Source of the DNA: a virus
Reading direction: 5' to 3' (one strand)
IMG/VR virus record: IMGVR_UViG_3300031673_000398
Coordinates: 1-26,764 of that record
Length of the DNA stretch: 26,764 bases
Shown here one piece after another: positions 6,246-26,053 of this stretch. Below the pieces are notes generated by a model. The model was given only the letters and a program-made list of their open reading frames with translations. It had not been told where the DNA came from and made no database searches. Numbering within the stretch: the stretch's first letter is position 1; the number at the start of each line of letters is the position of its first letter. The translations under genes and the position numbers were made by a program.

Positions 6246-6247
6246 AC

Positions 6248-10937: not shown

Positions 10938-11713
10938 CTATATATTTCCTGCAATTCTCTTTTAACTGTATCAATTCCCACATCTGGAATGTTCATTGGC
11001 ATATAACCGTGCTGTGTTTTAAAAAACTGGCATGCATTTATAAGGTTTTTATTCCATTCATGTTGGTCTTTTCTTATAACACTGCCTTCAAAATTCTCTT
11101 TTATATCTTTTATATAGTTATAACTCTCATGTATATCTGCAAAATACCAAAATGGTGGGTGTTTTTTGCAATCTTTATAAATTTTATAGGTATGTTCTAC
11201 ATGTTCCATTGCGTTTTGGTAATTTTCATCCATATACCCAACTCTTTCGATGCATTCTTTACGATAATAGCTCCAGGCCCCTAGAATATTATGATACAAA
11301 TCCACTTTTACATCCCCATAGTCTATAACCTTTTTTACAATAGGTTCCTGAGTTTGTTGATTTCTGTTATAAAAGCCATGGCCACCATAATTTAAATGCC
11401 AGATACCGCTAGTTTCCGCAGTTTTAATGTATTTGTCGCAAAGATTAGCGTCTTCGAACTTAATATCATCTTCACAAAGAAAAACATGGTCACAATTTCT
11501 TTCTTCAATTAGAAATTTTAAGGCTTTGTTTTTATTTTTAGCAACATTATCTATGCGTTTTGTGTAAATTACTTCATTTTTACCAGAAAAATAATCCTTT
11601 TCTCCACAAATAACCTCAACAACATGATCGGCCGGTGGCAATGTCTTAATACATTCTTTAAAAAACTCAGGTCTATTAACAGAGATAACACCAATTCCGA
11701 CTTTATTTGTCAT
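10925..11713 (-). CDS. GT2-like glycosyltransferase, paralogue B
   Basis: A 262-residue GT-A protein with the same plan as paralogue A: KVGIGVISVNRPEFFKECIKT at the start, HVFLCEDDIKFEDANLC (DD motif near residue 80), GYMDENYQNAMEHVEH in the acceptor region, and a C-terminus FFKTQHGYMPMNI matching FQKKHGVLPRDI of paralogue A. AAGG precedes the ATG at 11713, whose A is also the last base of the gp47 stop codon, so translation is coupled to gp47. It is the first gene of the glycosylation island in transcription order. Confidence 0.7.
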   Translation of the reverse strand: MTNKVGIGVISVNRPEFFKECIKTLPPADHVVEVICGEKDYFSGKNEVIYTKRIDNVAKNKNKALKFLIEERNCDHVFLCEDDIKFEDANLCDKYIKTAETSGIWHLNYGGHGFYNRNQQTQEPIVKKVIDYGDVKVDLYHNILGAWSYYRKECIERVGYMDENYQNAMEHVEHTYKIYKDCKKHPPFWYFADIHESYNYIKDIKENFEGSVIRKDQHEWNKNLINACQFFKTQHGYMPMNIPDVGIDTVKRELQEIYRWKK

Positions 11714-14636: not shown

Positions 14637-15032
14637 TTACATGGTTTCCAACTTCATAATCTCAACGATATTCTTATAATCCCATGTAATGGATGAAAAT
14701 ATACGTTCTAACTTCTCAAGATACTCAATAATATCTTTATATTCATCTATTTGTTCTTGTATCTTTGAAATACTCTCATGTTTTGAAGCTGCCGCGTTAA
14801 TTGATGCATCAGAAAGATTAACCCTACCCTTTTCTTTAAGTTTTACAGCTATATCAGCTATTGCAGCCCTCTTTTGTCTTATTAATTTAGATTCGTCTCT
14901 CTTTGCATTAATTAATCTTGCTACCCACTTATGTTTAATAGAGGGCAACTTCATAGACTTGTCATGAATAGTAACTTCATCGACTCTTGCATCATCTTCT
15001 GCTTCAATTATATATTGCTCTAGTAAATTCAT
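14637..15032 (-). CDS. uvsY: UvsY-like recombination mediator
   Basis: A 131-residue protein (T4 UvsY is 137) that loads the UvsX recombinase on gp32-coated single-stranded DNA. Visible features are a short acidic N-terminus, IKHKWVARLINAKRDESKLIRQKRAAI (like the SKWLNKHSSIKKEMLRIEAQKK block of T4), a long helix, and a C-terminal EYLEKLERIFSSITWDYKNIVEIMKLE similar in kind to T4 LQYWGILLDFCSGALDAIKSRGFAIKHIQDM. Similarity is moderate, but length, charge pattern and position before uvsW agree. It is the first gene of the leftward unit, reading away from the divergent region 15033-15122. Confidence 0.8.
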   Translation of the reverse strand: MNLLEQYIIEAEDDARVDEVTIHDKSMKLPSIKHKWVARLINAKRDESKLIRQKRAAIADIAVKLKEKGRVNLSDASINAAASKHESISKIQEQIDEYKDIIEYLEKLERIFSSITWDYKNIVEIMKLETM

Positions 15033-15122
15033 ATTAATTTTGTATATATTTCTCAGAACTTCTTGACATAACTTCTACATTCCCTAAATATATTATATAA
15101 TAGTATTATATAGGAGATTATT
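15033..15122. promoter_or_regulatory. Divergent promoter region between uvsY and the rightward block
   Basis: This 90-bp gap separates the leftward and rightward units and must carry promoters for both. On the plus strand TTGACA (15063-15068) has no well-spaced -10. CCTAAATA (15083-15090) matches the T4 late element TATAAATA at 6 of 8 positions, and TATAAT lies at 15096-15101. A clear Shine-Dalgarno, AGGAG (15112-15116), precedes the ATG at 15123. On the minus strand only AT-rich runs are visible; I see no MotA-like box for uvsY. Confidence 0.5.
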
Positions 15123-15611
15123 ATGACATCAACCCCGAAATTCGATAAAATTTATGAACAAGTAATGGAACAAAATGTTGCAGCACCAGGTGGTGTATTT
15201 GGTGATAACGCAGGAACAGGTGTGGACCTTGCTAAAAGCAGTGATACATATGCACCAGGTGATGCCAGATTGCCTAAAGCATTAGGTAAGGTTCAAAAAA
15301 GAAGCTTCCCTGAGTCTATATTTGACGGAAAAAAGAAAAAAGTAAGAAAAAAGAAGCAATCTGCTAACCCAGGACCTCTAAAAGAAGAAAAAGAATCTAT
15401 TAAAGGTGGTTTAGCAGATGGTATGTCGTTAAAAGACATAGCTGATAAGCATAATGTAGAGGTTTCAGAAATTAGAACACAATATGAGATGGGTGTTAAA
15501 GTAGAAATGGAACATACTGAGAATATTAAGCAAGCTCAAGAGATTTCTAAGGACCATTTAGAAGAAGATCCAAAATATTACTCTAAATTGAAAGATATGG
15601 AGCAAAAGTAA
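15123..15611 (+). CDS. DUF5661-like protein with basic patch and HTH-like segment; possible packaged head protein
   Basis: A 162-residue protein of unknown role. N-terminal peptide MTSTPKFDKIYEQVMEQ is amphipathic and carries I-Y-E at 10-12, an [I/L]-x-E prohead protease-type site. A strongly basic run (KKKKVRKKKQ, 70-79) follows. Residues about 95-122 (GLADGMSLKDIADKHNVEVSEIR) read as a helix-turn-helix. The C-terminal HTENIKQAQEISKDHLEEDPKYYSKL (131-156) is the DUF5661 signature (HT...A..IA.DHL.EDP.YY). AGGAG lies 6 nt before the start. The combination suggests a DNA-binding protein, perhaps carried in the head. The domain match is good; the function is not known. Confidence 0.6.
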   Translation: MTSTPKFDKIYEQVMEQNVAAPGGVFGDNAGTGVDLAKSSDTYAPGDARLPKALGKVQKRSFPESIFDGKKKKVRKKKQSANPGPLKEEKESIKGGLADGMSLKDIADKHNVEVSEIRTQYEMGVKVEMEHTENIKQAQEISKDHLEEDPKYYSKLKDMEQK

Positions 15612-15612
15612 G

Positions 15613-16008
15613 ATGGATTTAGGTCATTGGCAATTTAAAGGTGAAATACCCGAAGATGCTTATGGATTTATCTATCTTATTACCAATAATATCAATAAAA
15701 AGAAGTATATTGGTAAAAAACAAATGACATGTATTAGAAAACTCAAACCTTTAAAGGGTAAAAAGAATAAAAGACATAAAACAGTAGAAACGGACTGGAA
15801 AACGTATACAGGGAGCTCAGATGCTCTAAATAATGATATAAAAATATATGGTAAAGAGAATTTTACCTTCGAAATCTTGAAGATTTGCAATTCTAAGTCT
15901 CATTTGACATATGAAGAATCAAAAATGCAGTTCAAAGAAGATGTTTTATTAAAAGAAGATTACTATAACGGCATTATTTCATGCAGGATTTCAAAAATCA
16001 AGATTTAA
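15613..16008 (+). CDS. GIY-YIG nuclease-domain protein
   Basis: A 131-residue protein with a GIY-YIG fold: AYGFIYLITNNINKKKYIGKK (residues 16-36) gives the paired strands, DWKTYTGSSDALNNDIKIYG the helix region, ENFTFEILKIC the third strand, and TYEESKMQFKE holds the likely catalytic Glu. The catalytic Arg is probably in the CIRK segment (about 40). It is a stand-alone domain without a DNA-binding NUMOD or zinc finger, unlike T-even Seg homing enzymes, though related single-domain proteins are frequent in phages. It starts 1 nt after the preceding stop with GGAG some 10 nt before. It could be a homing nuclease or a structure-specific nuclease. Confidence 0.75.
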   Translation: MDLGHWQFKGEIPEDAYGFIYLITNNINKKKYIGKKQMTCIRKLKPLKGKKNKRHKTVETDWKTYTGSSDALNNDIKIYGKENFTFEILKICNSKSHLTYEESKMQFKEDVLLKEDYYNGIISCRISKIKI

Positions 16009-16027
16009 ACATAGGAAAATTTTAAAT

Positions 16028-16690
16028 ATGAGTAACAAAAAATGTGTATATTGCGGATTACCGCTAAGAGGAAAGGGTTGTCCCTACGGACCTAACAAAG
16101 TTCATGTAGTAATTGAACCAAATAAATGTATTTATTGTGGATTACCACTTAGAGGCAAAGGATGCGCATATTCACCTTCAGGGTCACATATTATGTCATC
16201 AGAATTTGGTTTGTTACAAGCTGAATCAACCAAGGAACACTTTATTATGAAATATATAATGGAAAAACTAAGAGAACCTGTCACTGAATCCAAGGCATAT
16301 GAACTTGGTATTATAAATGAACAAGGTTCTCAAATTAAAGACCCGTCAACACACCAGGAAAGGAAAGCATGGTCACCTTTGAATCAGTACTTACTAAGAT
16401 TAAAGAGAGTATTTGGTGAAAAGTTGGATGTATTAAACACTGAACTATATATGGAGAATGCAAGTAACTTAATTTCTTCAGAGGATCTTGTAGATGCTAA
16501 TTGGAATGCTGAAAAATACTTAGAAAAGGTAGAAATTGAAGAAAACTTTAAAAACTCCCTTGCAATTAAGTTAGATGAATATTATAATCTATTAAAAGAA
16601 GCTGAACACAATGGTATTTCAGCTGAGAAAATAGAGAAAATCTTATTATCTACCTTAAATGAAAATATCTCCAATAAATCTACCGGCTGA
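16028..16690 (+). CDS. Double zinc-knuckle protein of unknown function
   Basis: A 220-residue protein. Its first 54 residues hold two copies of CxYCGLPLRGKGCxYxPxxxH: Cys6, 9, 18 and His26, then Cys34, 37, 46 and His54, both with spacing C-x2-C-x8-C-x7-H, so each should bind one zinc. The rest is helical and acidic; KEHFIMKYIMEKLREPVTESKAYELGIINEQG (about 69-100) looks like a compact helical domain. The two repeats differ at most third codon positions, which points to selection for the protein motif rather than a recent copy. Nucleic-acid binding is likely; no family is recognised. AGGA lies about 13 nt before the ATG. Confidence 0.6.
   Translation: MSNKKCVYCGLPLRGKGCPYGPNKVHVVIEPNKCIYCGLPLRGKGCAYSPSGSHIMSSEFGLLQAESTKEHFIMKYIMEKLREPVTESKAYELGIINEQGSQIKDPSTHQERKAWSPLNQYLLRLKRVFGEKLDVLNTELYMENASNLISSEDLVDANWNAEKYLEKVEIEENFKNSLAIKLDEYYNLLKEAEHNGISAEKIEKILLSTLNENISNKSTG
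16043..16189 (+). repeat. Tandem zinc-binding repeat within gene, period 84 bp
   Basis: Two in-frame units of a C-x2-C-x8-C-x7-H motif, 28 codons apart. The core CGLPLRGKGC is identical at the protein level while the codons differ at several third positions (for example ggattaccgcta against ggattaccactt). Confidence 0.8.
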
Positions 16691-17228
16691 TAAAGTTGTA
16701 TTAATTAAATTCGAGGAAATCTTTCAGAACATAGAGAAAGATTTACTTAATGAACTACTTTTATATGATTTATTAAAAGATAATGTCTTAGATTTACGTA
16801 AAACAGATACTAAGAAAATACTTTATCATCATGTTATTTATAATATATGTGAAATAGTTATAAAATACAAGAAAACTTATAAATCTGATGTTTGTATTAT
16901 TTATAATAACATATTTACTAATAAAAATGAGATATGTAGATATATAGATTGTGATAAATTACATAATCAGTTAATTAATATATTAAACAAAATCAAAAAT
17001 AACTTATATATTCCTATATTCAAAGTTAAACACGAAATAACACAGAATAATTTAGAGTATGGTGAAGTTATTGATATTATAAGAATAATTATAAACACCC
17101 TGGCAACAAATTCAACCAAGAAAAATAATAATTTTTTAAAAACTAAGGAATTTGTTAAGAAAAATGGCTTAATTTTCCTAGATGAAACTTATTTTACAAA
17201 AATTCAATCACATTACCTGTTGATTTGA
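16659..17228 (+). CDS. Hypothetical protein, very AT-rich gene
   Basis: A 189-residue protein with no recognised family. It is rich in Ile, Leu, Asn and Lys and looks all-helical (FEEIFQNIEKDLLNELLLYDLLK; LHNQLINILNKIKN; GEVIDIIRIIINTLA), without membrane segments. The reading frame overlaps the zinc-knuckle gene by 32 nt and no strong Shine-Dalgarno is visible. Base composition is even more AT-biased than its neighbours, which could mean recent gain. It lacks the targeting-type N-terminus of the following genes and is followed by a 58-nt gap holding a late promoter. An uninterrupted frame of this length in the tiled order of genes favours a real gene. Confidence 0.55.
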   Translation: MKISPINLPADKVVLIKFEEIFQNIEKDLLNELLLYDLLKDNVLDLRKTDTKKILYHHVIYNICEIVIKYKKTYKSDVCIIYNNIFTNKNEICRYIDCDKLHNQLINILNKIKNNLYIPIFKVKHEITQNNLEYGEVIDIIRIIINTLATNSTKKNNNFLKTKEFVKKNGLIFLDETYFTKIQSHYLLI

Positions 17229-17257
17229 AAGAAACTTACTTTATAATGTGCAAAACA

Positions 17258-17265
17258 TATAAATA
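17258..17265 (+). promoter_or_regulatory. T4-type late promoter, copy 1
   Basis: Exact TATAAATA, the element recognised by gp55-programmed RNA polymerase, lies in the intergenic gap 21 nt before the ATG at 17287. It runs into AAATATTTTAACGGAGACA, which supplies the leader and a GGAG Shine-Dalgarno. The same leader occurs before the gene at 24672, which makes a chance match unlikely. It drives the six-gene operon 17287-22176. Confidence 0.75.
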
Positions 17266-17279
17266 TTTTAACGGAGACA
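17259..17279 (+). repeat. 21-bp direct repeat (late promoter/leader), copy 1
   Basis: Identical to 24649-24669. It consists of AT followed by AAATATTTTAACGGAGACA and joins the promoter element to the ribosome binding site. Both copies precede genes whose products start with capsid-targeting-like peptides. Confidence 0.85.
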
Positions 17280-17286
17280 CTAAAAA

Positions 17287-17532
17287 ATGAATACATTTGA
17301 TACACTATTTGAACAAATTATGGGACAAGATGCCACTAAGAAAGCAAAACAAAAAATTGCAGATGCAGAGGGCATTGAAGCACAAGCAGCACAAGATGAA
17401 GTTGATGGAAAAGATTCCACAATTAAAAAATCTGCAGCTAATAAACTTAAAGCAACAGGAACTAAAGAGCTTGCAGCAGATTTAACAAAGAAAGCTAAAG
17501 AAATCGAAGCACAAACTAAAACAGGATTTTAA
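17287..17532 (+). CDS. Small Ala/Lys-rich protein, possible internal head or core protein
   Basis: An 81-residue protein, almost wholly charged and helical, rich in Ala, Lys, Glu and Gln, without hydrophobic core signals beyond the N-terminus. It begins MNTFDTLFEQIMGQDA, an amphipathic start with L-F-E at 7-9 as a possible prohead protease site. Size and composition resemble the small prohead core or internal proteins of T4 (gp67, gp68, IPs), but there is no sequence match I can point to. It is the first gene after the late promoter at 17258 and ends 1 nt before the next start. Confidence 0.55.
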   Translation: MNTFDTLFEQIMGQDATKKAKQKIADAEGIEAQAAQDEVDGKDSTIKKSAANKLKATGTKELAADLTKKAKEIEAQTKTGF

Positions 17533-17533
17533 T

Positions 17534-18013
17534 ATGAAGAAATTTGAAAACGTTTTAGAAAAATATAGACAAGAGGTTGAACCTAAGGAAGTTAAACTCA
17601 GTGAATTTTATAAATCCATTGCAAAGAAAAATCCTATTAACATATATTTAACAGAACAAGATGCTCCACCAGAAGAAGCACCTTCTATTGACCCTGGTGG
17701 TCCTCCACCTATGCAAATGAATTCACCTGGTGGTCTTGGACCAGCTGATGAACCTGAAGAACCTGCAGAAGTTGAACTTGAAAACATTCCTTATGCTTTA
17801 ATGGCTTGGTATGCATTCAAGGCTCTTTTAATTAATCCATCAGAAATTACTAGTTCTGAATATTATGATCAACTTCAAGATTTGACCGGCGGTGGTGATA
17901 AAGCTAAAATTGATTCACCAGAAAAAGGCGTTAGAATCTTTCAAGTTATTGAAAAGATTATCGATGATAAAGAAACACCATCTAATTCTGATATACCACA
18001 AACTGCTGAATAA
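17534..18013 (+). CDS. Acidic proline-rich protein, possible head cargo or core protein
   Basis: A 159-residue protein of unknown family. The start MKKFENVLEKYRQ is amphipathic. L-S-E (22-24) and L-T-E (39-41, in NIYLTEQDAPPEEAP) are [I/L]-x-E sites. Residues about 43-85 are a low-complexity acidic Pro/Gly linker (PPEEAPSIDPGGPPPMQ..., DEPEEPAEVE). The C-terminal part (about 88-145) looks folded: IPYALMAWYAFKALLINPSEITSSEYYDQL and GVRIFQVIEKIIDD. The stop overlaps the next ATG by 1 nt. It could be a scaffold/core component, or an adaptor with a flexible arm. Confidence 0.55.
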   Translation: MKKFENVLEKYRQEVEPKEVKLSEFYKSIAKKNPINIYLTEQDAPPEEAPSIDPGGPPPMQMNSPGGLGPADEPEEPAEVELENIPYALMAWYAFKALLINPSEITSSEYYDQLQDLTGGGDKAKIDSPEKGVRIFQVIEKIIDDKETPSNSDIPQTAE

Positions 18014-18903
18014 TGAAATTTAAAGAATACCTCGTCGAATATAAAATTTTTCAACACATCCTCATGGAAGGTGGTGCCATGGAGGGTGTTGGTGCTATTC
18101 ATATAGATGAAATCGAACCCACTTTAATTAAGATACAAAATAGCTTAATTAGAGAGTTAGGACAAGAAACATTTAATAGATACTTTGACGGTGGTTCATT
18201 ATTAGATAACGCTCTTGGAAGTGTTCAGAAAAAGTTGTTTTCTGGAGATATGGACATTGCTATTAATATAGATAGATCAGAAATACCAGAGTTTGTCTCG
18301 GTTTTACAAAGAATTCCTGAGGTTAAGGAAGTTAAGACTGGTTCTGTTATTATGATGTCAGTGGAAATTGATGGTAAATCTGATGTAGAACCACCTGAAG
18401 GCAAGGCAAGAACTGGATTAGTTCAAATTGACTTCATGCCTGGTGAAAAACAATGGATGAAAACATTTTATCACTCACCCAACCTTTTAAAAGGTGAAAG
18501 TAAGTATGGTGGTATATATAGAACACTTCTTTTAACAGCTATTACATCTAATGTTGACACTAAAGTTGGTGAAATAGATCCTAATGATCCTATGGAAAGA
18601 CCTGAATTTATTGAAAGATATAAATGGGGTTCAAATGGTGTAGTGAGAGTAAGAAGAACACCTGGAAAAAATGCCAAGGGTTATCTAAAAAAGAATGATG
18701 ATGAAGTCATTGCAGGCCCTTATACTAATCCACAAGAAATTGTTAAGGTATTAAATTTAGGATCAACAGAAAACCTTAATAGTTATGAATCCTTGCGCAA
18801 AACTATCGAAGAAAGATATGAACCTGAATTAGTTACAAAGATTTTAGAGAGTTATAAAAAGTTATTGGAAAACCAAGGACTTGAAATACCAGGAGATTTA
18901 TGA
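18013..18903 (+). CDS. Pol-beta-superfamily nucleotidyltransferase with capsid-targeting-like N-terminus
   Basis: A 296-residue protein. The core GSVQKKLFSGDMDIAINID (69-87) fits the hG[GS]...DhD pattern of pol-beta-type nucleotidyltransferases, with Asp79 and Asp81 as metal ligands, and VQIDFMPG supplies the third carboxylate, Asp140. Such enzymes add nucleotides to RNA, DNA, protein or small molecules. The first 19 residues, MKFKEYLVEYKIFQHILME, carry two [I/L]-x-E sites (7-9, 17-19) before GGAMEG, as in T4 internal-protein targeting peptides. Its stop overlaps the ligase-like gene by 4 nt (ATGA), so the two products are probably made in similar amounts. The target is unknown. Fold assignment is fairly confident; packaging is inference. 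Confidence 0.7.
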   Translation: MKFKEYLVEYKIFQHILMEGGAMEGVGAIHIDEIEPTLIKIQNSLIRELGQETFNRYFDGGSLLDNALGSVQKKLFSGDMDIAINIDRSEIPEFVSVLQRIPEVKEVKTGSVIMMSVEIDGKSDVEPPEGKARTGLVQIDFMPGEKQWMKTFYHSPNLLKGESKYGGIYRTLLLTAITSNVDTKVGEIDPNDPMERPEFIERYKWGSNGVVRVRRTPGKNAKGYLKKNDDEVIAGPYTNPQEIVKVLNLGSTENLNSYESLRKTIEERYEPELVTKILESYKKLLENQGLEIPGDL

Positions 18904-20042
18904 ATTTTAAAGAATTTCGAAGAAGTGAAACATTAATCACAGAAGGCGCTGAAGCACGTATACAACACGCTGAAGATTTAATCTTTTGGGAAGGTTCACA
19001 AGGTGCTTTAAGAGCATTAGACGCTTTGGAATCACTCTCCAGAAGTGGTATTAATCACACTTCTGTTAAATGGGATGGTTCACCGAGTTTGATATTTGGG
19101 AATGATGAAAACGGAGAATTCGTTCTTACAGACAAGTCTGGTTTCTACGCAAAAGGGTATGACGGTAAAGCAAAATCCCCCGATGAATTAAGAGAAATGT
19201 TTTTAAACCGTTCTGGTGGTAAAAATAGAGAAAATTCAAGTTATGTTGAATTTGCAAATAAGATGGCACAAATTTTTTACATCTTTAAAAATGCAATTCC
19301 CAAAGGTTATAAAGGATTTTTTAAAGGTGATCTTCTATATTATAACAAACCAGGAATTAAAAACGGACATTATATATTTCAACCAAACGTAGTTCAGTAT
19401 GAAGTAGATTTAACATCAGATTTAGGTAAAAGAATTTCTAAATCTGAAGCTGGTGTTGTAATTCATAGAGCAGTTGATTTTGATGGAAATGAACAACCAT
19501 TAAAAGATTTGAATATATTTAAAGGAAATGATCTTTTAGTGATTCCTCCTGTATTCGTAGAACATAAAGCCCAAGTAGATTTAGAAAATATTAAAAGTGT
19601 TAAGAAAATTATTTCACAAAATAACCTTGCTATTAACTCTCTTATAGATGAAAATATATTAAAGCAAAAACAAATAGCTGATTTTCCACAAGTATTATAC
19701 AAATATTTAAATTCCAAAGTTGATACAGGACTTGAAAATATAGGATCTGATTTTTTTGATTGGCTTGCAACACAAAACATTTCCACCAGAAAAAAACAAA
19801 ACATAACACAACATATTCAAGAAAATTCACAAATCTTCAATGTTTTATGGCAAATAGTAAACATGATAATGGACATAAAGGACGATATTGTTCAACAATT
19901 TGACAATAATGCACAAGTGGTTAAGCAAACAATGGCTGGTGAGCGAGGTGGCGAAGGATATGTATACTCAAATAAAAACGGTGATATTAAATTAGTACCC
20001 AGAAGAACATTTTCTCGCATAAACAGGAGCATAGAAAGATGA
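18900..20042 (+). CDS. DUF6267-like protein with covalent nucleotidyltransferase (ligase/capping) motifs
   Basis: A 380-residue protein. HTSVKWDGSPSLIFG contains K57-W-D-G60, the KxDG motif I whose Lys becomes adenylylated or guanylylated in DNA/RNA ligases and capping enzymes. FVLTDKSGFYAKGYDGK follows, then GFFKGDLLYY (about 139-148, motif III-like), EAGVVIHR (about 183-190, motif IV-like, with His where Lys is usual) and a C-terminal KLVPRR that could be motif V. I recognise this as the phage DUF6267 type. The N-terminus MNFKEFRRSETLITEG has I-T-E at 13-15 followed by Gly, the best match here to the T4 targeting consensus. Coupled to the genes before and after by 4-nt overlaps. An ATP-dependent ligase role is plausible but unproven. 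Confidence 0.65.
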   Translation: MNFKEFRRSETLITEGAEARIQHAEDLIFWEGSQGALRALDALESLSRSGINHTSVKWDGSPSLIFGNDENGEFVLTDKSGFYAKGYDGKAKSPDELREMFLNRSGGKNRENSSYVEFANKMAQIFYIFKNAIPKGYKGFFKGDLLYYNKPGIKNGHYIFQPNVVQYEVDLTSDLGKRISKSEAGVVIHRAVDFDGNEQPLKDLNIFKGNDLLVIPPVFVEHKAQVDLENIKSVKKIISQNNLAINSLIDENILKQKQIADFPQVLYKYLNSKVDTGLENIGSDFFDWLATQNISTRKKQNITQHIQENSQIFNVLWQIVNMIMDIKDDIVQQFDNNAQVVKQTMAGERGGEGYVYSNKNGDIKLVPRRTFSRINRSIER

Positions 20043-21559
20043 GAACACTAAATGAAGCGTATGATAGAGTATACACCAAACAATATCGCCCACCTAAAAA
20101 CCTTCAAAGTATATATCTTGAGCAAGTTGCTGATGATGAACAAGATGAAGAAATTGAAGATATCAATATTCCAAAAAAAGATGCTTTAATTAAATTATCA
20201 GGTTTATCCAGCGAATCTGCACTTCTTAAACTAGCAGAACTCTATGATATTATAAAAAATGATTTGCGTTTTACTGAAATTTTAAAGAACCAAGTTTATT
20301 TTTCTAGAGGTTCTGAAAAATCCAGAATATACAGAAACGAAGATATAATTAATCAAAACACACTACTTGATATTTCTAAAAATGATTTCGATAATGGTGA
20401 ATTGATTATTACGTATGCTGGTAACATAAGAAAAATTAGAACACCAGCACCTGGTGCTAAAAGAATAGCAGAATTTAATAAAATTTCAGATTCACATGTT
20501 AATAAAACATATGAATCGATTAAAAATAAAAATACTATTAACAGTACTCATACTTCAACTCTTAGGATATTGTGTTTATATGATTTGTTTATTGAATATC
20601 CATCACTTGTTAAATTAACACAGAAAGTAGCGGCTGGACTTGGAGCAGAATTTGCACAAGTTGAAGAATTTAATAAAGCACTTGAAGATCTTCCACCTGT
20701 AAAATTCTTTATAAAACATAATTTAAAAACTGAAAATCAAAATATCCAATTTAATAAAGCTAAAAAAATTGAAGGTTCAGGAAAGGCAGATATTGAGCTA
20801 ATTAACTCAAAAACAGGAAAAGCGGTATATTGGATTTCTTTTAAAGATGGAAAATATGATGTAAAAAAAGATGCGTCTTTTCAACAATGGGGCTCTCTAA
20901 GAACCCTCTATAATAATGACAGTAGTATTAATTCAATCATTGATATATTTTTAGATAATATAAGTGATTTATTGCCTTCTGTTAATTATCCACCTTCTCA
21001 AAAAGAACTTGAAATTATTAATAAAAACCCTCTAATGAAAACATTATGGGATGCAAATTCTTATAAATTTAATAAGAACGGTACAGAGTTTAAAGCAAAT
21101 AAAAATTCTGTTAAAAAAATATATTTCTATACCAAAGGCACACCTGAATATTATATAGATCTCTTTAATAAAAAAAATAAAATGGAACAGAATTCAATTT
21201 CAAATCTTGCTTTAAAATCAATTTATGGGTCTGAATATGAAATGGGAAAGAATTCACCATTTTCTAGCGAGAATGTTAATATAGTTCTTCAAACACCAAA
21301 CGCTCTTTCTCTAAGACCGTTAATAAAAGAAGAAGAAATAGAGGCTGTTGTATTAGACATCAAACCAGGAGCTCACCTTATTAAAAATCCACAAATGCCC
21401 GAATCAGAAAATTATCTTCCTTGTTTATATAGCAGATTTACAGAAGCAATGTTTTTCTTTTTTAATAATAATACTGAATGTATTTTAGGAATACGACCTC
21501 TCGTTTATCCTATATCTAAAGCAGCCTCTGGTAAGTCAAAGGAAATCTTTTTAAAATGA
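20039..21559 (+). CDS. Large unknown protein with possible PD-(D/E)XK nuclease core
   Basis: A 506-residue protein, third in the coupled set. The N-terminus MRTLNEAYDRVYTKQY has L-N-E at 4-6; an acidic linker follows (ADDEQDEEIED, 31-41). The one suggestive motif is GSGKADIELINSKTGKAVYWISFKDG (246-271): Asp251 on a strand, then a strand ending S-F-K269, the arrangement of PD-(D/E)XK nucleases with Ser in place of Glu/Gln. The following KDASFQQWGSL fits the helix that comes next in such folds. The C-terminal 130 residues show alternating strands (AVVLDIKPGAHLI, CILGIRPLVYPI). No family is recognised. Its overlap of 4 nt on both sides ties it to the ligase-like and NMNAT-like genes. Confidence 0.55.
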   Translation: MRTLNEAYDRVYTKQYRPPKNLQSIYLEQVADDEQDEEIEDINIPKKDALIKLSGLSSESALLKLAELYDIIKNDLRFTEILKNQVYFSRGSEKSRIYRNEDIINQNTLLDISKNDFDNGELIITYAGNIRKIRTPAPGAKRIAEFNKISDSHVNKTYESIKNKNTINSTHTSTLRILCLYDLFIEYPSLVKLTQKVAAGLGAEFAQVEEFNKALEDLPPVKFFIKHNLKTENQNIQFNKAKKIEGSGKADIELINSKTGKAVYWISFKDGKYDVKKDASFQQWGSLRTLYNNDSSINSIIDIFLDNISDLLPSVNYPPSQKELEIINKNPLMKTLWDANSYKFNKNGTEFKANKNSVKKIYFYTKGTPEYYIDLFNKKNKMEQNSISNLALKSIYGSEYEMGKNSPFSSENVNIVLQTPNALSLRPLIKEEEIEAVVLDIKPGAHLIKNPQMPESENYLPCLYSRFTEAMFFFFNNNTECILGIRPLVYPISKAASGKSKEIFLK

Positions 21560-22176
21560 ACTTATTCGATAAACTTTACAAAAAAATAATTAATGAACAA
21601 ACAGGAAAAGCAGCTGTTGTTACATATGCAAGAATGAACCCTATTACAATAGGCCATAAAAAGCTTGTTGATAAAGTGGTTTCTGATGCTGAAGAAATAG
21701 GTGCTACACCAATTATATTTCTTTCACATACACAAAAACCCAAAACAGATCCTCTTTCATTGGACCAAAAGATTTATTTCTTTAAAAAACTATTTCCTGG
21801 CGTAAAAGTTGGTAATGATATGTTCAAAGGACAATTTACTCCACCTGCTGCTTTGGAAGAATTATCAAAACATGGTTACAAGGATATCATTTTTATAGTA
21901 GGGGATGATAGAGTATCAAGTTTTGGATTCTTACAAAAATATAATGGAGTCCCTGACAAAACCGGTAAAATTGCATATACATTTGATAATTTAGAAATCA
22001 GATCTGCGGGTGAACGTGACCCAGATGCCGAGGGTGTAGAGGGAATGAGTGCTTCAAAAATGAGAGCAGCTGCAGCAGAAGGTGATTATGAATTATTTGC
22101 TCAAGGAATTCCAACTGAAGATGAAAATTTAATCAAGGAACTCTACGAAGCTGTTCGTTCTGGCATGGGCTTGTAA
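21556..22176 (+). CDS. NMN adenylyltransferase-like nucleotidylyltransferase with targeting-like N-terminus
   Basis: A 206-residue HxGH-superfamily nucleotidylyltransferase. VVTYARMNPITIGHKKLVDK (21-40) has T-I-G-H at 31-34, the ATP phosphate-binding motif (T/HxGH); IIFIVGDDRV is the core strand, and GMSASKMRAAA (163-173) corresponds to ISSTxxR. The most likely reaction is NMN (or a related mononucleotide) plus ATP to a dinucleotide, i.e. NAD synthesis; a cytidylyl- or other adenylyltransferase role is possible. The first 15 residues, MNLFDKLYKKIINEQ, precede the domain and include I-N-E at 12-14, so cleavage would leave an intact enzyme. It is the last gene of the six-gene late operon. Confidence 0.72.
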   Translation: MNLFDKLYKKIINEQTGKAAVVTYARMNPITIGHKKLVDKVVSDAEEIGATPIIFLSHTQKPKTDPLSLDQKIYFFKKLFPGVKVGNDMFKGQFTPPAALEELSKHGYKDIIFIVGDDRVSSFGFLQKYNGVPDKTGKIAYTFDNLEIRSAGERDPDAEGVEGMSASKMRAAAAEGDYELFAQGIPTEDENLIKELYEAVRSGMGL

Positions 22177-22193
22177 AAAAATATAATTTTCAG

Positions 22194-22221
22194 GTGACAC
22201 CTTCATCTTTTGTAGTATAAT
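22194..22221 (+). promoter_or_regulatory. Sigma70-like promoter for queE
   Basis: GTGACA (22194-22199) and TATAAT (22216-22221) are 16 bp apart in the 50-bp gap after the NMNAT-like gene. The queE ATG begins at 22227, only 5 nt after the -10, so the transcript would start at or near the initiation codon. An AAGG (22222-22225) is too close to the ATG to act as a normal ribosome binding site. Confidence 0.55.
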
Positions 22222-22226
22222 AAGGT

Positions 22227-23027
22227 ATGGAAAACAATAATATAATTAATGTGTCGGAATTTTTCCTTTCGATACAAGGGGAGGGTGCTACAACAGGTAT
22301 ACCTTCTATCTTCATTCGTCTTAGTGGGTGCAATTTTGCATGCGGTCTTAACCAAATGTTCGAGAAAGGTCTAGCCACCTGGAAGTGTGACTCAGAAAAG
22401 GTTTGGAAAACTAATTCACCAATGACATATGAAGAATTATACGCTTCATTTGAAAGTTGGGGTGAAATTTCTAACATAATTGAAGGTAGAACACATCTAA
22501 TTTGGACTGGTGGTGAACCAACCATGCCACAACATGTTAAATCCATCGTTGGTTTTCTTGATTTCTTCACTGACTTACATCCAGAAGCAGTTGGTCAGAT
22601 GTATAATGAGATTGAAACCAATGGTTCCATTCCAGTATTTCAAAAAGGGTTTTACAAACCAGAAGAAATCGATGGGATTGTCGTGGGCCCTTATATACAA
22701 CAAATTAATTGTTCTGCAAAATTGGCAAATTCAGGAATGGGCAAACCAATGAGAATTAACAAGAGAGCAATTGAACAAGTTTTAGAACACCCGGAAGGTT
22801 ATTTTAAATTTGTAATTAGTTCTGAACCAGATATTCTTGAAATACAAGAAGATTTTGTCAAACCTTTTAATATACATTGGAAAAAGATTATTTTAATGCC
22901 GGCTGTGGATAACAGAGATGATTTGCCCGCAGCAACTAAGTTTTTATTCGATATGTGCAAGAAATATGGCTATAGAGGTGTTACAAGAAGCCACATACTG
23001 GCATGGGATCGTGTCACTGGGGTTTAA
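22227..23027 (+). CDS. queE: 7-carboxy-7-deazaguanine synthase (radical SAM)
   Basis: Converts 6-carboxytetrahydropterin to CDG in the preQ0/queuosine pathway; 266 residues. FLSIQGEG (13-20) and the radical SAM region RLSGC35NFAC39 are typical, but the third cluster Cys is at 54 after the 14-residue stretch GLNQMFEKGLATWK, giving C-x3-C-x14-C instead of C-x3-C-x2-C. The CDSEKVW that follows suits an insertion-bearing QueE class. LIWTGGEPTMP (91-101) is the GGEP SAM contact. Phage QueE can serve 7-deazaguanine DNA modification or host tRNA queuosine; no other pathway gene (queC, queD, folE, dpdA) is in this window. It starts a separate promoter unit with dCMP deaminase 3 nt downstream. Confidence 0.9.
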   Translation: MENNNIINVSEFFLSIQGEGATTGIPSIFIRLSGCNFACGLNQMFEKGLATWKCDSEKVWKTNSPMTYEELYASFESWGEISNIIEGRTHLIWTGGEPTMPQHVKSIVGFLDFFTDLHPEAVGQMYNEIETNGSIPVFQKGFYKPEEIDGIVVGPYIQQINCSAKLANSGMGKPMRINKRAIEQVLEHPEGYFKFVISSEPDILEIQEDFVKPFNIHWKKIILMPAVDNRDDLPAATKFLFDMCKKYGYRGVTRSHILAWDRVTGV

Positions 23028-23030
23028 TCG

Positions 23031-23501
23031 TTGAATATCAACAGGTTAACTAAAACTGAATATGGATGTTTGATGGCTTTATCAGCGTCCACCCGGTCAG
23101 AAGGTAGAAAAACTAGAGTAGGTTGTGCAATTGAAGACCACGATGGTAGAATTATTGCGACTGGATATAATGGTTATGCACAAGGATTTAATTTAGATGC
23201 TGTAATTAAAAATAATGAAGAATCAAGACCTTATTATATACACGCAGAAACAAATGCCCTAAGTTTAATTCAAAGAGGACAAGGTAAAGTGCTATATTGC
23301 ACACATTCACCATGTATTTCTTGTGCACAAAACATAATTGCCCATAAAATTCAAGAAATTGTGTATATTAATTTATATGAACACGTTGAACAAGATGTTA
23401 ATTTCAAGTCATTGTTTGAAAGTTACAATATTAAATATCGCAACGCAACAGTATTAGAAAAAAATAACATTCTTGAAAGTTATATAAACAAAAACTTATA
23501 A
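23031..23501 (+). CDS. dCMP deaminase (zinc deoxycytidylate deaminase)
   Basis: Deaminates dCMP to dUMP for dTTP synthesis, as T4 gene cd. It has 156 residues with the zinc site H71-A-E73 and PC95-x2-C98, the proton-shuttle Glu at 73, and GYNG (about 46-49) of the dCMP deaminase group. The start is TTG (23031), 3 nt after the queE stop and preceded by GGGG; the first ATG in frame would remove the N-terminal helix (LTKTEYGCLMALSAS), so TTG is favoured. The C-terminal 40 residues lack other motifs. Free cytosine deaminase cannot be excluded, but the phage context favours dCMP. Confidence 0.85.
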   Translation: MNINRLTKTEYGCLMALSASTRSEGRKTRVGCAIEDHDGRIIATGYNGYAQGFNLDAVIKNNEESRPYYIHAETNALSLIQRGQGKVLYCTHSPCISCAQNIIAHKIQEIVYINLYEHVEQDVNFKSLFESYNIKYRNATVLEKNNILESYINKNL

Positions 23502-23504
23502 GTA
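23497..23504 (+). promoter_or_regulatory. Possible late promoter before the 103-residue gene
   Basis: TATAAGTA, one mismatch from TATAAATA, overlaps the dCMP deaminase stop. It runs into TTTTCGTAGGAG, which resembles the leader of the two clear late promoters (TATTTTAACGGAG), and is 21 nt before the ATG at 23526, the same distance as copy 1. The 7 of 8 match alone would be weak in AT-rich DNA; the shared spacing raises it. Confidence 0.45.
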
Positions 23505-23525
23505 TTTTCGTAGGAGAAAAAAAAA

Positions 23526-23837
23526 ATGATTAAAAGAATAATTACATTTATTAAAGCGCCATGGATTTGTTCAGTTGTAACAAAAACAATCCAAGGCATA
23601 TCATCTGTTCTTGTTGTTCTTAAATTTGCTCGTGAGCAGATAGAGGGCAGTGAAGCAGGAGATAATGCTATTAAAATTATAGCAGAAGTAGAAGGATTTC
23701 TTGAAGTTGCACTAAAAACACTAAAGAAAACCACGGGGTTCATTTGTGGTTCGACAGATGTTGAAGTTAAAACACAAAGTCTAGATGACGCAATTAAAAC
23801 CTTAAGTTCCGTAACTAAAGAATTAAAAGATCTTTAA
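23526..23837 (+). CDS. Small helical protein of unknown function
   Basis: A 103-residue protein with good Shine-Dalgarno AGGAG 10 nt before the ATG. The first 35 residues are hydrophobic/amphipathic (MIKRIITFIKAPWICSVVTK, GISSVLVVLKFA) but too broken by charge and polar residues for a confident membrane segment. The remainder is an amphipathic helix pair (AIKIIAEVEGFLEVALKTLKKTTG; DAIKTLSSVTKELKDL). It is followed 13 nt later by a hairpin terminator, so it closes the queE unit and may also have its own late promoter. No family recognised. Confidence 0.5.
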   Translation: MIKRIITFIKAPWICSVVTKTIQGISSVLVVLKFAREQIEGSEAGDNAIKIIAEVEGFLEVALKTLKKTTGFICGSTDVEVKTQSLDDAIKTLSSVTKELKDL

Positions 23838-23850
23838 TACAAACTAACAT

Positions 23851-23884
23851 AAAAAGCGGCTTATTAATTTAAGTCGCTTTTTTT
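23851..23884 (+). terminator. Rho-independent terminator
   Basis: Hairpin GCGGCTTA / TAAGTCGC with one G-T pair and a 6-base loop, flanked by AAAAA on the left and a run of seven T on the right. It lies 13 nt after the stop at 23837. The A-run on the left makes it a possible terminator on both strands, but no leftward gene reads into it. Confidence 0.85.
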
Positions 23885-23885
23885 A

Positions 23886-23913
23886 TTGGCTTTTTTAAAA
23901 AATGCAGTATAAT
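23886..23913 (+). promoter_or_regulatory. Sigma70-like promoter for the P-loop kinase gene
   Basis: TTGGCT (23886-23891) and TATAAT (23908-23913) are 16 bp apart, directly after the terminator. The ATG is at 23957 with GAGG at 23946-23949. The -10 context AGTATAAT is the same as at queE. Confidence 0.65.
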
Positions 23914-23956
23914 TATTGTTAATGACACAAACAACATTAAAATTAGAGGTAATGAT

Positions 23957-24652
23957 ATGAGAATACTTGTGAGCGGTGCTCAAAGTCAGGGAAAAACGAC
24001 ATTTATAAACGACTTTATCAAAGCGTTTCCGATGTATAAGAAATCAGAAAATAGTTACAGAGAACTATTAAAAGATAGTAATATTAAAGTCAATAGAGAA
24101 GGTTCTCTCGAACATCAAAAATTAATAAGAGACCATATCATTGATAACCACATGACATTTAGAAAAACAGACCATGTAATTCATGACAGAGGAATTTTAG
24201 ACAATGTAGTACACACTATATATCTCAATGATAAAAACCCAGAAGATGTTACACACGAGTTTGTTGAAGAAAGTATGCGTTTATGTCAAGAAACATGTAA
24301 ATTTTATGATATTATATTTCTTTTTCCGATCACAAAGTATGATAACATTCCAATGGATGAAAAAAAGAATAGAGATACAGATATTGAATTTAAAAATGAG
24401 ATAGATTTTTTCTTCAGAGCAGCCCATGGAACATATAAAGACGCAAAAACATTATTTTTTGATATGAAAGATTGCCCAGCAGTAATAGAAATCTTCGGAA
24501 ATCGATTAGAGAGAATTGAAATGGCTAGAATGTATATAGATCCCAAAACAGGTGACCAATATAAAGAAGAAAAATCCCTATTGACACCTGATTTAATGGA
24601 CATCATGAGTAAAGAAGACACAATACAACCCAAAACATTCCAACTTCGATAA
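23957..24652 (+). CDS. NadR-like P-loop kinase/ATPase
   Basis: A 231-residue P-loop protein. The start RILVSGAQSQGKTTF contains Walker A (G7-x4-GKT, 7-14) in the form found in the ribosylnicotinamide kinase domain of NadR and the AAA_28 group. VIHDRGILDNVVHTIYL (about 73-89) has the DR...D motif of the same group, IIFLFPITKYD (about 115) is the next core strand, and a lid-like Arg/Lys segment (DEKKNRDTDIEFKNEIDFFF) follows. A nucleoside or nucleotide substrate is likely; nicotinamide riboside is a reasonable guess, given the NMNAT-like gene 1.8 kb upstream. Its C-terminal 40 residues are polar. The stop codon overlaps the late promoter copy 2. Confidence 0.65.
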   Translation: MRILVSGAQSQGKTTFINDFIKAFPMYKKSENSYRELLKDSNIKVNREGSLEHQKLIRDHIIDNHMTFRKTDHVIHDRGILDNVVHTIYLNDKNPEDVTHEFVEESMRLCQETCKFYDIIFLFPITKYDNIPMDEKKNRDTDIEFKNEIDFFFRAAHGTYKDAKTLFFDMKDCPAVIEIFGNRLERIEMARMYIDPKTGDQYKEEKSLLTPDLMDIMSKEDTIQPKTFQLR

Positions 24653-24655
24653 ATA
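24648..24655 (+). promoter_or_regulatory. T4-type late promoter, copy 2
   Basis: GATAAATA (7 of 8 match to TATAAATA) overlaps the kinase stop codon and continues into the same AAATATTTTAACGGAGACA leader as copy 1, with GGAG before the ATG at 24672. It drives the last two plus-strand genes. Confidence 0.7.
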
Positions 24656-24669
24656 TTTTAACGGAGACA
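24649..24669 (+). repeat. 21-bp direct repeat (late promoter/leader), copy 2
   Basis: Identical to 17259-17279, 7.4 kb away. Because its first bases form part of the kinase gene's last codons and stop, the element here serves as both coding sequence and promoter. Confidence 0.85.
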
Positions 24670-24671
24670 TT

Positions 24672-25628
24672 ATGAAATTTAACAAAGCAGTAAAAATATT
24701 ATTAAATGAAGAGGTACAATCTCTTAACGAATTTGCAAGAATTGCTGACCATGAACAATTGCAAGGAATGGTTACAGCTGATTATGATAAAGCAGCTGTA
24801 ACTGCTGCAATCAACGAATATTTTAAAATTAAACCAAAAGGTTTCTTTTCTAAAGCAATCAATGGTAAAAAAGATTTAGATATTGGTAATATTTTTATCA
24901 AATCCATAGACGAAGTAATTGAAAAGATGGATTTGGATTCGTCTTATGGTCTTAGAGCTGCTATGTTTGATTTCCACGGACATAATAATAACGTTGATAA
25001 AAACATTTTAGCACAAGAGGTGTGGAAAAATATTAATGAAGAATTAGGAACCAATATTCCTAAAACAAAAATTAAATCAACCTTACTTCAAGTAAAAGGT
25101 TTCATGAAAGCAAATTCTTCTTTATTTTTAACTGATGAAGAAGCACAAGTAAATGGTCGTGGTGTTTCAAAAGGAACAAAAGGCTCTGCTAAACCAGCTA
25201 CAGATTCAAAAAACTACAAGGTTATTAAAGACACCAGTGAAACAGAAATTCAAGAAGCTGTTACAGATCAATTTGACCGCAGAGTTGCACGAGCTGTTAA
25301 ACTTCTAGGACAAGGTGAAGTCCTCTCCATTGCAGAAATCAAGAGTTTCTTTGATACCTTTGATTATGATACAATGACCATCGTAAAATTCCTAGTGGAT
25401 ATGGGTATTATCGAACCTTCTGATGAAGTAGTCCACTCTCCAGAAGAAAATGAAACAGAAGGGGAAGATGAAGTTGATGGAAAAGAAGTTAAAGACTTAG
25501 ATCAAAGCTTTTTTGCAGATAAGGGTATAAAAAAATTCTCAAGCGTTGACTCTGTCAGATCAGAAATAGGTGATACTATTGGAAGAACTGGATTCAGAGG
25601 TTCGCCTGAAGGCTATGGTGACTATTAA
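24672..25628 (+). CDS. Unknown 318-residue protein with targeting-like N-terminus
   Basis: No family recognised. The start MKFNKAVKILLNEEVQSLNEF is amphipathic with L-N-E at 11-13. Residues about 30-160 look alpha-helical with a FDFHGHNNN segment near 98. A Gly/Ser/Lys linker (GRGVSKGTKGSAKPA, about 162-176) separates it from a second domain at about 195-255 (DQFDRRVARAVKLLGQGEVLSIAEIKSFFDTFDYDTMTIVKFLVDMGII) with a winged-helix-like alternation. The tail is strongly acidic. Late promoter copy 2 lies 16 nt upstream. The stop overlaps the next ATG by 1 nt. Head or virion protein, packaged cargo, or DNA-binding protein are all possible. Confidence 0.5.
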   Translation: MKFNKAVKILLNEEVQSLNEFARIADHEQLQGMVTADYDKAAVTAAINEYFKIKPKGFFSKAINGKKDLDIGNIFIKSIDEVIEKMDLDSSYGLRAAMFDFHGHNNNVDKNILAQEVWKNINEELGTNIPKTKIKSTLLQVKGFMKANSSLFLTDEEAQVNGRGVSKGTKGSAKPATDSKNYKVIKDTSETEIQEAVTDQFDRRVARAVKLLGQGEVLSIAEIKSFFDTFDYDTMTIVKFLVDMGIIEPSDEVVHSPEENETEGEDEVDGKEVKDLDQSFFADKGIKKFSSVDSVRSEIGDTIGRTGFRGSPEGYGDY

Positions 25629-26053
25629 TGAATAGTAAATTTGAACAACTTATTTCTGAACAGATGTCTTCTATCACAAAGACAAAGACTATGAGATTTC
25701 CTCGTCAAATTCAGTTCAGTGAAGAGTTCATGCAAGCCATTGAAAAAGAATATTACACACAAGTAATATCTGAAAGCCCAGAAGCACCTGTTCGTAATAG
25801 ACCCCAAAAGTTCATTAAGGCTCTTGAGTTTGTTGTTGCTGATATTGTTAAAAATGAAGAAACCAATAAAGGCAAATACAGGATTAATGAAGACACAGAA
25901 CACTATTCAGCAACATCAGAAAATTCACCTAAACAAGATGAAGGTAAAGATGTAAAGAAAACAGAAAAGAATAAAGAAGAAGTCTTAAAGATGAATTCTA
26001 AACCTCTTAAAGAAGGTTGTTCAAAAAGAATGTCCAAGAGCCAACGCAGATAA
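25628..26053 (+). CDS. Unknown 141-residue protein with targeting-like N-terminus
   Basis: No family recognised. The start MNSKFEQLISEQMSS has I-S-E at 9-11. Residues about 20-80 look folded (MRFPRQIQFSEEFMQAIEKEYYTQVI; FIKALEFVVADIVKNE), then comes a charged Glu/Lys/Ser linker and a basic end (KPLKEGCSKRMSKSQRR). It is coupled to the preceding gene by a 1-nt overlap. Its last 33 bases overlap the end of the convergent primase gene on the other strand. Confidence 0.5.
   Translation: MNSKFEQLISEQMSSITKTKTMRFPRQIQFSEEFMQAIEKEYYTQVISESPEAPVRNRPQKFIKALEFVVADIVKNEETNKGKYRINEDTEHYSATSENSPKQDEGKDVKKTEKNKEEVLKMNSKPLKEGCSKRMSKSQRR

Follow-up and report, generated by a model that had tools for sequence, protein, structure and literature searches.

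The stretch of DNA analysed here, called the window in the following, is the IMG/VR virus record IMGVR_UViG_3300031673_000398 at its full length of 26,764 bases. It carries T4-type genes: an open-ended open reading frame (ORF) at 1-920 that by eye is DNA polymerase-like, the genes of gp46, gp47, gp55, UvsW, and UvsY on the minus strand, and a primase gene at the right end. Between the UvsY and primase genes the plus strand encodes nine proteins (Table 1), named here by the first base of their genes, each with a short N-terminal peptide, the tag, that contains [I/L]-x-E. Six of them make up the whole of the run 17287-22176 and two the run 24672-26053; the untagged queE, deaminase, 23526, and kinase-like genes sit between these two tagged runs. 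This marine bacterial virus appears to tag a set of enzymes, likely gap fillers and sealers of DNA among them, with removable packaging peptides, and the enzymes, carried in the head, may enter the next host. With a probability of roughly 0.8, a T4-like phage makes all nine proteins, or no fewer than seven, late in infection as internal proteins of its head, docked by their tags and trimmed by a gp21-type protease.

Table 1. Tagged genes and promoter-like elements of the window (score and rank refer to the tag profile described in the text; RBS, ribosome-binding site)
Feature	Position	Strand	Details
CTAAATA, possible late-promoter variant	15084..15090	+	32 bases before 15123
DUF5661 protein, 162 aa	15123..15611	+	PF18905, E 3.5e-16; candidate tag residues 1-12 (IYE) or 1-16 (VME); score 7.3 at E16, rank 4/33
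Late-promoter-like TATAAATA and leader/RBS TTTTAACGGAGACA	17258..17279	+	head of tagged run 17287-22176
Tagged protein, 81 aa	17287..17532	+	tag MNTFDTLFE (1-9), score 7.4, rank 3
Pro/acid-rich tagged protein, 159 aa	17534..18013	+	score 6.0 at E9, rank 5; sites VLE 7-9, LSE 22-24, LTE 39-41
Pol X-like nucleotidyltransferase, 296 aa	18013..18903	+	tag residues 1-19 (18013-18069), predicted cut E19/G20; second candidate site LVE 7-9
DUF6267 ligase-like protein, 380 aa	18900..20042	+	PF19782, 5e-34; tag residues 1-15 (18900-18944), predicted cut E15/G16; score -3.3
Orphan, 506 aa	20039..21559	+	tag MRTLNE (1-6), score 8.65, rank 2
Cytidyltransferase/NMNAT-like enzyme, 206 aa	21556..22176	+	phrog_3041, 3e-52; tag MNLFDKLYKKIINE (1-14)
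Second copy of the 21-bp late-promoter/RBS-like module	24649..24669	+	head of run 24672-26053
Orphan, 318 aa	24672..25628	+	candidate tag MKFNKAVKILLNE (1-13), LNE present; score -5.8
Tagged orphan, 141 aa	25628..26053	+	tag MNSKFEQLISE (1-11), score 5.5, rank 6

The initial annotation listed nine [I/L]-x-E motifs with their positions, and all nine are present as written. The start M-x-x-F, which it rather generously called frequent, is found in 17287, 17534, and 21556, whereas Phe is residue 3 in 18013, 18900, and 24672, residue 5 in 25628, and residue 7 in 15123, and 20039 has none. It also rightly described queE (22227), the dCMP deaminase (23031), and the kinase-like gene (23957) as lacking the pattern, the motif being absent from their first 25 residues. 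The supposition that such starts are rarer in other proteins of the genome held in part. With Glu within the first 25 residues, the motif occurs in 9/9 of the set, but also in 8/24 other window ORFs and in 28% of 296 internal stretches; a bare count was rejected as sole evidence because the motif is so common there. The first 16 residues do separate the groups (8/9 of the set vs 3/24 others, Fisher 9.6e-5; 16% of 465 internal stretches), the three other matches being 992 (IPE), UvsY at 14637 (IIE), and the GIY-YIG gene 15613 (IPE).

Since the set of nine had been picked by hand, a profile from outside was used for ranking, built on cytidyltransferase tags of IMG/VR contigs (53 unique sequences) and on nothing from the window. 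It was applied to the 33 window ORFs of at least 75 amino acids, the starts of 18013 and 23031 having been set by hand. Ranks 1-7 are held, in this order, by 18013, 20039, 17287, 15123, 17534, 25628, and 21556. A score of at least 5 is reached by 6/9 of the set and 0/24 other ORFs, and eight members (the cytidyltransferase omitted) score above the 24 others with a Mann-Whitney p of 1e-4. An earlier profile with weaker smoothing placed the same seven on top, with 18900 11th and 24672 17th. Of the T4 internal proteins, IPII and IPIII reach 8.9 with this profile.

In the DNA polymerase X (Pol X)-like family of 18013, tag and domain meet at a recurrent point. Among 43 unique junctions, Glu immediately precedes GG or SG in 40, Met takes that place in two, and one was mis-located (L115, where the junction by eye is FFTE-GG; L-numbers denote the loci or contigs of relatives examined). 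For this count five loci without a recognisable GG junction (L164, L165, L174, L178, L179) were set aside and L170 was read by eye. The Glu lies at the domain edge in 40/41 unique tagged N-termini, and P3 is Leu in 18, Ile in 15, and Val in six, i.e., one of these in 39/41. The untagged proteins of L170, L176, L182, and L183 have Met at the domain-edge point, and the first residue of the untagged homologue of phage PA5oct is no more than one position away from the predicted mature N-terminus; because untagged proteins start at this point, the mature N-terminus would hardly differ between tagged and untagged proteins. In the AlphaFold2 model of 18013 (26 sequences; mean predicted local distance difference test score, pLDDT, of 90) exactly residues 1-19 fall below 50, and the confident domain follows the predicted cut.

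The model of 18013 matches DNA polymerases beta and lambda: Foldseek returned 73 matches with E <= 0.001, the best 50 of the 73 all being Pol beta, whole or as the catalytic domain, with E down to 3.5e-5, and with VIA the best Z was 10.1 over 174 residues at 3.2 A. Among the matches listed, TM to the query was 0.33-0.42. A sequence profile run against PDB reached Pol beta only at E 0.48. In the alignment of 26 rows chosen among about 75 homologues, G69, K73, K74, S77-G78-D79, D81, and D140 are invariant and S70 is nearly so. The protein thus has the palm motif GS..(S)GD[IM]D and the third Asp; the full pattern LGS..KK..SGD[MI]D..(Q)xD is that of Pol X, with counterparts in Pol beta. PADLOC matched 18013 to AbiEii, which belongs to the same broad group of nucleotidyltransferases, at E 0.0056. 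In L148, L139, L140, and L144 the Pol X-like genes have long tag-like extensions, and no gp21 or gp23 was detected on these contigs; a segment may be missing, or the head system may be a different one.

The ligase-like family DUF6267, to which 18900 belongs, is represented by 55 homologues in the loci. By pattern, 43 have an N-terminal extension, and 40/43 carry [ILMVF]xE in it; the three without a tag (L062, L086, L089) are all short. The other 12, read by eye, comprise the tagged L039, L040, and L075, the untagged gp87 of cyanophage S-CREM2, and eight that start inside the domain or are cut. For the alignment, 29 tagged rows were chosen among the 55, untagged and truncated ones being omitted. 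In these the Glu of the tag (E15 in the window) is invariant while the rest of the tag varies; K57-x-D59-G60, E352-G353, and K364 are invariant as well. The family therefore has KxDG as motif I and, downstream, EG and K motifs like those of the ATP-dependent nucleic-acid ligase superfamily. In the AlphaFold2 model of 18900 (29 sequences, pLDDT 88), with the cut predicted at 15, residues 1-3 and 5-19 are below 50. The 50 VIA matches listed were all RNA, DNA, or tRNA ligases or ligase-containing complexes, at Z 5.2-6.8, values that are not decisive alone. Foldseek gave a mixed list with E > 0.6 only, and the sequence profile search of PDB with DUF6267 found no useful relative.

The catalytic-type motifs conserved in the Pol X-like and ligase-like families bear on an alternative in which the peptides hold the proteins as prohead core or scaffold, and the enzymes have a structural or assembly role during packaging and do not reach the host. 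The T4 core proteins gp22, gp67, and gp68 are indeed also cut by gp21, into short fragments, according to the accessible part of PMC5694885, and by eye the small orphans 17287 and 17534 resemble core fragments more than enzymes. A terminal cut, on the other hand, leaves the domain whole, and relatives of the proteins are reported from purified virions; together with the conserved motifs, this makes a purely structural role rather unlikely.

In 59/77 cytidyltransferases with a recognisable domain, a short tag preceding the domain contains [ILVMF]xE; of the other 18, read by eye, nine have long extensions with the motif just before the domain. For 21556, 518 phage records were matched, and the best 60 of the 518 align from query residues 2-22 on. 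The claim that in the enzyme-like members the peptide precedes the folded domain is thus borne out by the AlphaFold2 models of 18013 and 18900 and by the alignment of 21556. In the aligned heterotroph-phage sequences, GH of the first and S-A-S and R of the second motif of nicotinamide mononucleotide adenylyltransferase (NMNAT) are kept; the GxHxGH-like and ISSTxxR-like patterns are NMNAT motifs, and the PHROG family of 21556 is named cytidyltransferase. The sequence profile search of PDB with this family, too, found no useful relative.

The T4 capsid targeting sequence offers a register for comparison: by its genetics, as given in the accessible part of PMC9026906, residues 4 and 7 serve mainly targeting, and 8 and 10 processing. 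Most DUF6267 tags fit this register, as do eight cytidyltransferase tags with Glu at 10/11. Over 37 unique DUF6267 tags, hydrophobic residues occupy P7 in 81% and P4 likewise in 81% (aromatic ones in 73% and 62%, respectively) vs 35% (11%) in the background, and P5 in 0%; P3 was required by the tag selection and is no evidence. Judged by their sequences, at least two tag spacings exist. Compared with the T4 register, the window tags have their key residues shifted by 1-5 or partly missing, and 7/9 are on top of the outside profile.

Tags are not confined to these families. Among the relatives' ORFs up to six genes from the cytidyltransferase gene, 4-27% score at least 5, depending on position; the share is 2 to 8% at a distance of seven or eight genes, and for internal stretches (6,799 of them) it is 2.2%. 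Pfam matches of 39 tagged proteins (35 hand-picked from 83 clusters, and four of L002) were to cytidyltransferase-like (3) and NT5C nucleotidase (2) families and, once each, to annexin, peptidoglycan-binding, SprT-like, DUF5661, DUF7230, and DnaJ central domains. The presence of the tag on many unrelated proteins is as expected of a targeting signal. Some of the tag-positive cargo was discarded as false, e.g., DnaJ with internal starts. The DUF5661 homologue in L062 starts with MKSFNKFLDEA, and an 833-aa protein at L002:4533-7034 has a tag-like start followed, by eye, by annexin-type repeats and a peptidoglycan-binding stretch.

Presence in the virion is shown in relatives only, and the data used here come from the accessible parts of the published lists. 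For S-CREM2, Table 3 of PMC10665884 gives 24 structural and 28 other virion proteins detected by mass spectrometry (MS). Non-structural ones include an S-adenosylmethionine (SAM) hydrolase starting with MKDFDSFLEE, gp13 (MKDLHSFLTE), a kinase (MKRFDAFLTE), gp136 (MQTFSMFFSE), and the cytidyltransferase (MKNFSSFLTE). A score of at least 5 is reached by 6/27 MS-detected non-structural proteins (gp12, gp13, gp14, gp15, gp160, gp209; gp154 was omitted) vs 3/167 undetected ones (p 2.7e-4; five thresholds tried gave p 2.7e-4 to 3.8e-3). A pattern with the spacing of the T4 internal proteins, written after these N-termini had been seen, gave 5/28 vs 1/167 (p 2.4e-4). The MS-detected cytidyltransferases are tagged in 4/4 phages: S-CREM2, S-SCSM1 (MKSFLQFLKE), S-SZBM1 (MRFRQFIIE), and S-SM1 (MKKFSAFLNE); a fifth virion cytidyltransferase is reported in S-CBWM1 (PMC10665884). 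The untagged Pol X-like homologue of PA5oct is labelled structural by electrospray ionization tandem MS. In S-CREM2 a late sigma gene is followed by a cluster which starts with the cytidyltransferase gene and ends before the primase gene, a position similar to that of the tagged genes in the window. A second cluster of MS-detected proteins, at L007:3837-13331 in S-CREM2, encodes the SAM hydrolase, a Cas9-like protein, the kinase, and two small proteins; tag-like starts are seen in most of them.

Detection in these relatives might also be due to carry-over of abundant late proteins in CsCl preparations, with the tag unrelated to it, a concern raised by the S-CREM2 authors themselves (PMC10665884); in S-SCSM1 even RegA is labelled a virion protein. 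In the phages looked at, however, detection follows the tag: against the four tagged cytidyltransferases stand the untagged DUF6267 proteins S-CREM2 gp87 and S-SZBM1 gp141, missing from 2/2 virion lists as far as these are accessible, and the Cas9-like protein is the sole entry under DNA replication and metabolism in Table 3 for S-CREM2. Carry-over as the whole explanation is therefore very improbable.

That the proteins are made late, as the initial annotation proposed, would fit the identical late-promoter-like module at the heads of the two runs. The 21-base block ATAAATATTTTAACGGAGACA at 17259-17279 is identical to that at 24649-24669, with no further site in the window at up to 3 mismatches and 0 expected; TAA in the latter copy doubles as the stop codon of the preceding gene. 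In T4, TATAAATA is the late promoter. Right of 15 kb, ATAAATA occurs on the plus strand at the two run heads and nowhere else, and the window has fewer such sites than chance. In relatives TATAAATA precedes 15/186 tagged vs 38/959 other ORFs (p 0.02), and no enrichment before tagged ORFs was found for NATAAATA or CTAAATA. The CTAAATA before 15123 is a weak candidate for this reason and because matches in the window are fewer than chance. The protein 24672, the weakest of the nine by its tag, is supported by the promoter module.

The S77 protease family of gp21, PF03420, was found in 5/5 complete named phages searched (T4, Melnitz-3, HTVC008M, S-CREM2, PA5oct), in 4/16 IMG/VR records, and in 5/16 further records. 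A five-row gp21 profile, run without a positive control, had no match on ten contigs, and Peptidase_S78 was absent from ten records, T4 included. Near the mature start of gp23 a candidate motif of the same kind is seen: SFLTE in T4, AFLSE in Melnitz-3, AFLGE in HTVC008M, GLLTE in S-CREM2, and EILQE in L101; among these sites only the T4 cut is established. The T4 gp23 propeptide has 65 residues (PMC5694885, accessible part), and its cut site falls beyond the 25 residues scanned by the profile.

Packaging and trimming, the central proposal of the initial annotation, are well supported by the Glu at the domain edge in two families, the starts of untagged Pol X-like proteins, the AlphaFold confidence, the 4/7/8/10 register of DUF6267 tags, the enrichment in S-CREM2 virions, the MS-labelled PA5oct homologue, S77 in 5/5 phages, and the shared promoter-like module; in the window phage itself cleavage would follow the same pattern. 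The motif proved not diagnostic alone, UvsY matching it and two of the nine scoring poorly, and the enzymes have become nameable as Pol X-like, ligase-like, and NMNAT-like.

Several observations speak against this interpretation. In the window, UvsY and 15613 rank 8 and 9 on the outside profile, ahead of 18900 (13) and 24672 (16). In T4, 13/252 ORFs score at least 5, UvsY highest, and of ten head substrates all but IPII and IPIII stay below 5 (gp67 4.8, gp24 4.3, IPI 2.8, gp22 1.2, Alt -1.6, gp23 -3.1, gp68 -6.6, gp21 -8.4). The tag profile is useful but not diagnostic, moderately specific and insensitive. In S-CREM2 the high score of the endolysin gp209 is probably due to chance, the tag-like gp6 and gp136 score below 5, and a looser spacing pattern separates less well (7/28 vs 13/167, p 0.012). 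In the S-SCSM1 stretch, where 64/74 coding sequences were scored, the profile does not separate the virion proteins (2/8 vs 4/56), and the labelling of RegA there belongs to the same side. Several DUF6267 homologues, among them those of the four cyanophages looked at, and 9/77 cytidyltransferases have no tag. The gp21-like protease predicted for the window phage was not found within the 26.8-kb window. The protease does not track the tag either: PA5oct and the L183 contig have it together with untagged Pol X-like proteins, and on eight contigs with Pol X-like loci, one of them of 146 kb, neither S77 nor gp23 was found. Finally, 35 unique shorter cytidyltransferase tags, with E at 8/9, lack the T4 spacing, P4 being 17% and P6 86% hydrophobic.

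Such spacing, shared by most cytidyltransferase tags, would suit a peptide that is a docking helix for some other intracellular site, such as the replisome, the membrane, or the late transcription complex, with [I/L]xE arising incidentally from amphipathic composition. When the N-termini of the nine are shuffled, [IL]xE appears in about 30% of trials (25 residues), and UvsY of both the window phage and T4 scores on the profile. A docking helix is nevertheless quite unlikely in view of the Glu at the domain edge, replaced by Met in untagged Pol X-like homologues, the tag enrichment in the S-CREM2 virion proteome, and the T4 register of DUF6267 tags. The score of UvsY (14637-15032 in the window) may be a false positive or an unexplored feature; UvsY is not known to be internal to the head.

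With tag-directed packaging thus preferred, the tagged set would be a variation on the T4 internal-protein system. Like the window proteins, IPI-III and Alt of T4 have a short N-terminal propeptide, an [IL]xE site, and a TATAAATA-type element; the MKTYQEFIAE-type register of T4 internal proteins is common to many tags here, and a gp21-type protease is present in relatives. Unlike in T4, the window cargo includes DNA and nucleotide enzymes, mostly in one gene run, and no internal-protein or Alt family was found among the Pfam, PHROG, and PADLOC matches. The cyanomyoviruses S-CREM2, S-SCSM1, S-SZBM1, and S-SM1 have virion-associated NMNAT/cytidyltransferase, SAM hydrolase, kinase, and Cas9-like proteins, and their cytidyltransferase is homologous, similarly placed, MS-detected, and tagged in the same way. 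They differ from the window in that no Pol X-like match was found in the S-SCSM1, S-SZBM1, and P-HM2 stretches and in that cyanophage DUF6267 is untagged. The ejection proteins of SPN3US and phiKZ are head proteins trimmed after x-x-Glu by gp245 and gp175, respectively; several of their propeptides, unlike the window tags, are longer than 100 residues, and phiKZ has S/A-x-E as its motif (PMC5694885 and PMC9026906). The virion cluster EST35_0226-0238 of PA5oct has the MS-labelled Pol X-like homologue near a possible ligase-like gene, 0228, whose relation to DUF6267 is weak (E 4e-4 in a set of ten); unlike the window phage, PA5oct is a jumbo phage and its Pol X-like homologue is untagged. The term 'capsid targeting' is absent from the main text of the S-CREM2 paper. 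Literature searches outside bioRxiv and most subscription journals found only one T4 review for capsid targeting with cyanophage, and none for DUF6267.

The mechanism would run as follows. The N-terminal peptide, mostly of 6-19 residues and hydrophobic at or near the T4 targeting positions, would dock the protein in the prohead core; a gp21-type protease would cut behind [ILV]-x-Glu, where the folded domain begins; the mature enzyme would remain in the head with the DNA and, by analogy with T4 Alt and internal proteins, would presumably enter the host with the genome. The cargo is predicted to be largely DNA- or nucleotide-directed, with Pol X-like, ligase-like (DUF6267), and NMNAT-like enzymes besides orphans. 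A tentative extension, for which the odds are rather against, is that the head carries a DNA repair kit delivered with the genome: a Pol X-like gap filler, a ligase-like sealer, perhaps a PD-(D/E)xK nuclease, and an NMNAT-like NAD guard, which might mend nicks, gaps, or defence-inflicted breaks before phage genes are expressed. Components of the putative kit, with a tag or without, turn up in marine T4-like phages and as far afield as PA5oct. At L179, from 4704 onward on the plus strand, DUF6267 and Pol X-like domains are fused in one ORF with the junction LNE-GG, compatible with polyprotein cleavage; with LNE/GG between its parts, the product would resemble a small polyprotein cut by the prohead protease.

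The tag offers a sequence rule for which unknown genes of the abundant marine T4-like phages may encode virion-carried proteins, and one explanation why cyanophage virions have here and there been reported to contain NMNAT-like, SAM-hydrolase, kinase, and Cas9-like proteins. It suggests a pre-packed DNA repair capacity, and the old question of what phage proteins accompany the DNA into the cell, and for what reason, becomes testable in cultured phages.

Among the remaining members, 17287, 17534, 24672, and 25628 have no Pfam, PHROG, or PADLOC family above cut-off, and 17534 has the least certain cut site of the nine (LTE 39-41, with VLE 7-9 as the alternative). The orphan 20039 contains by eye a PD-(D/E)xK-like motif, GSGKADIEL...YWISFK, and matches phrog_13937 (E 5e-10). 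No homologue was found by tblastn, in a viral-contig scan, among PDB sequences, or in the relatives' loci, and its profile was negative against four tagged or neighbouring families except for a weak match in L043 (probability 40%); it is thus by its motif only that the protein may be a nuclease.

It is also worth mentioning some neighbouring genes. The protein encoded at 16028-16690 begins, by eye, with two copies of a CxYCGLPLRGKGC-like motif; next comes phrog_2086, a small conserved domain of phages, which many relatives' loci also have. On the minus strand, an IMP dehydrogenase/GMP reductase-like gene lies at 4020-5042 (phrog_9582 dehydrogenase, E 5e-89). Between this GuaB-like gene and gp47, at 5042-11713 on the same strand, there are by eye glycosyltransferase-like genes and a methyltransferase-like gene, an unusual content for the interval between gp46 and gp47.

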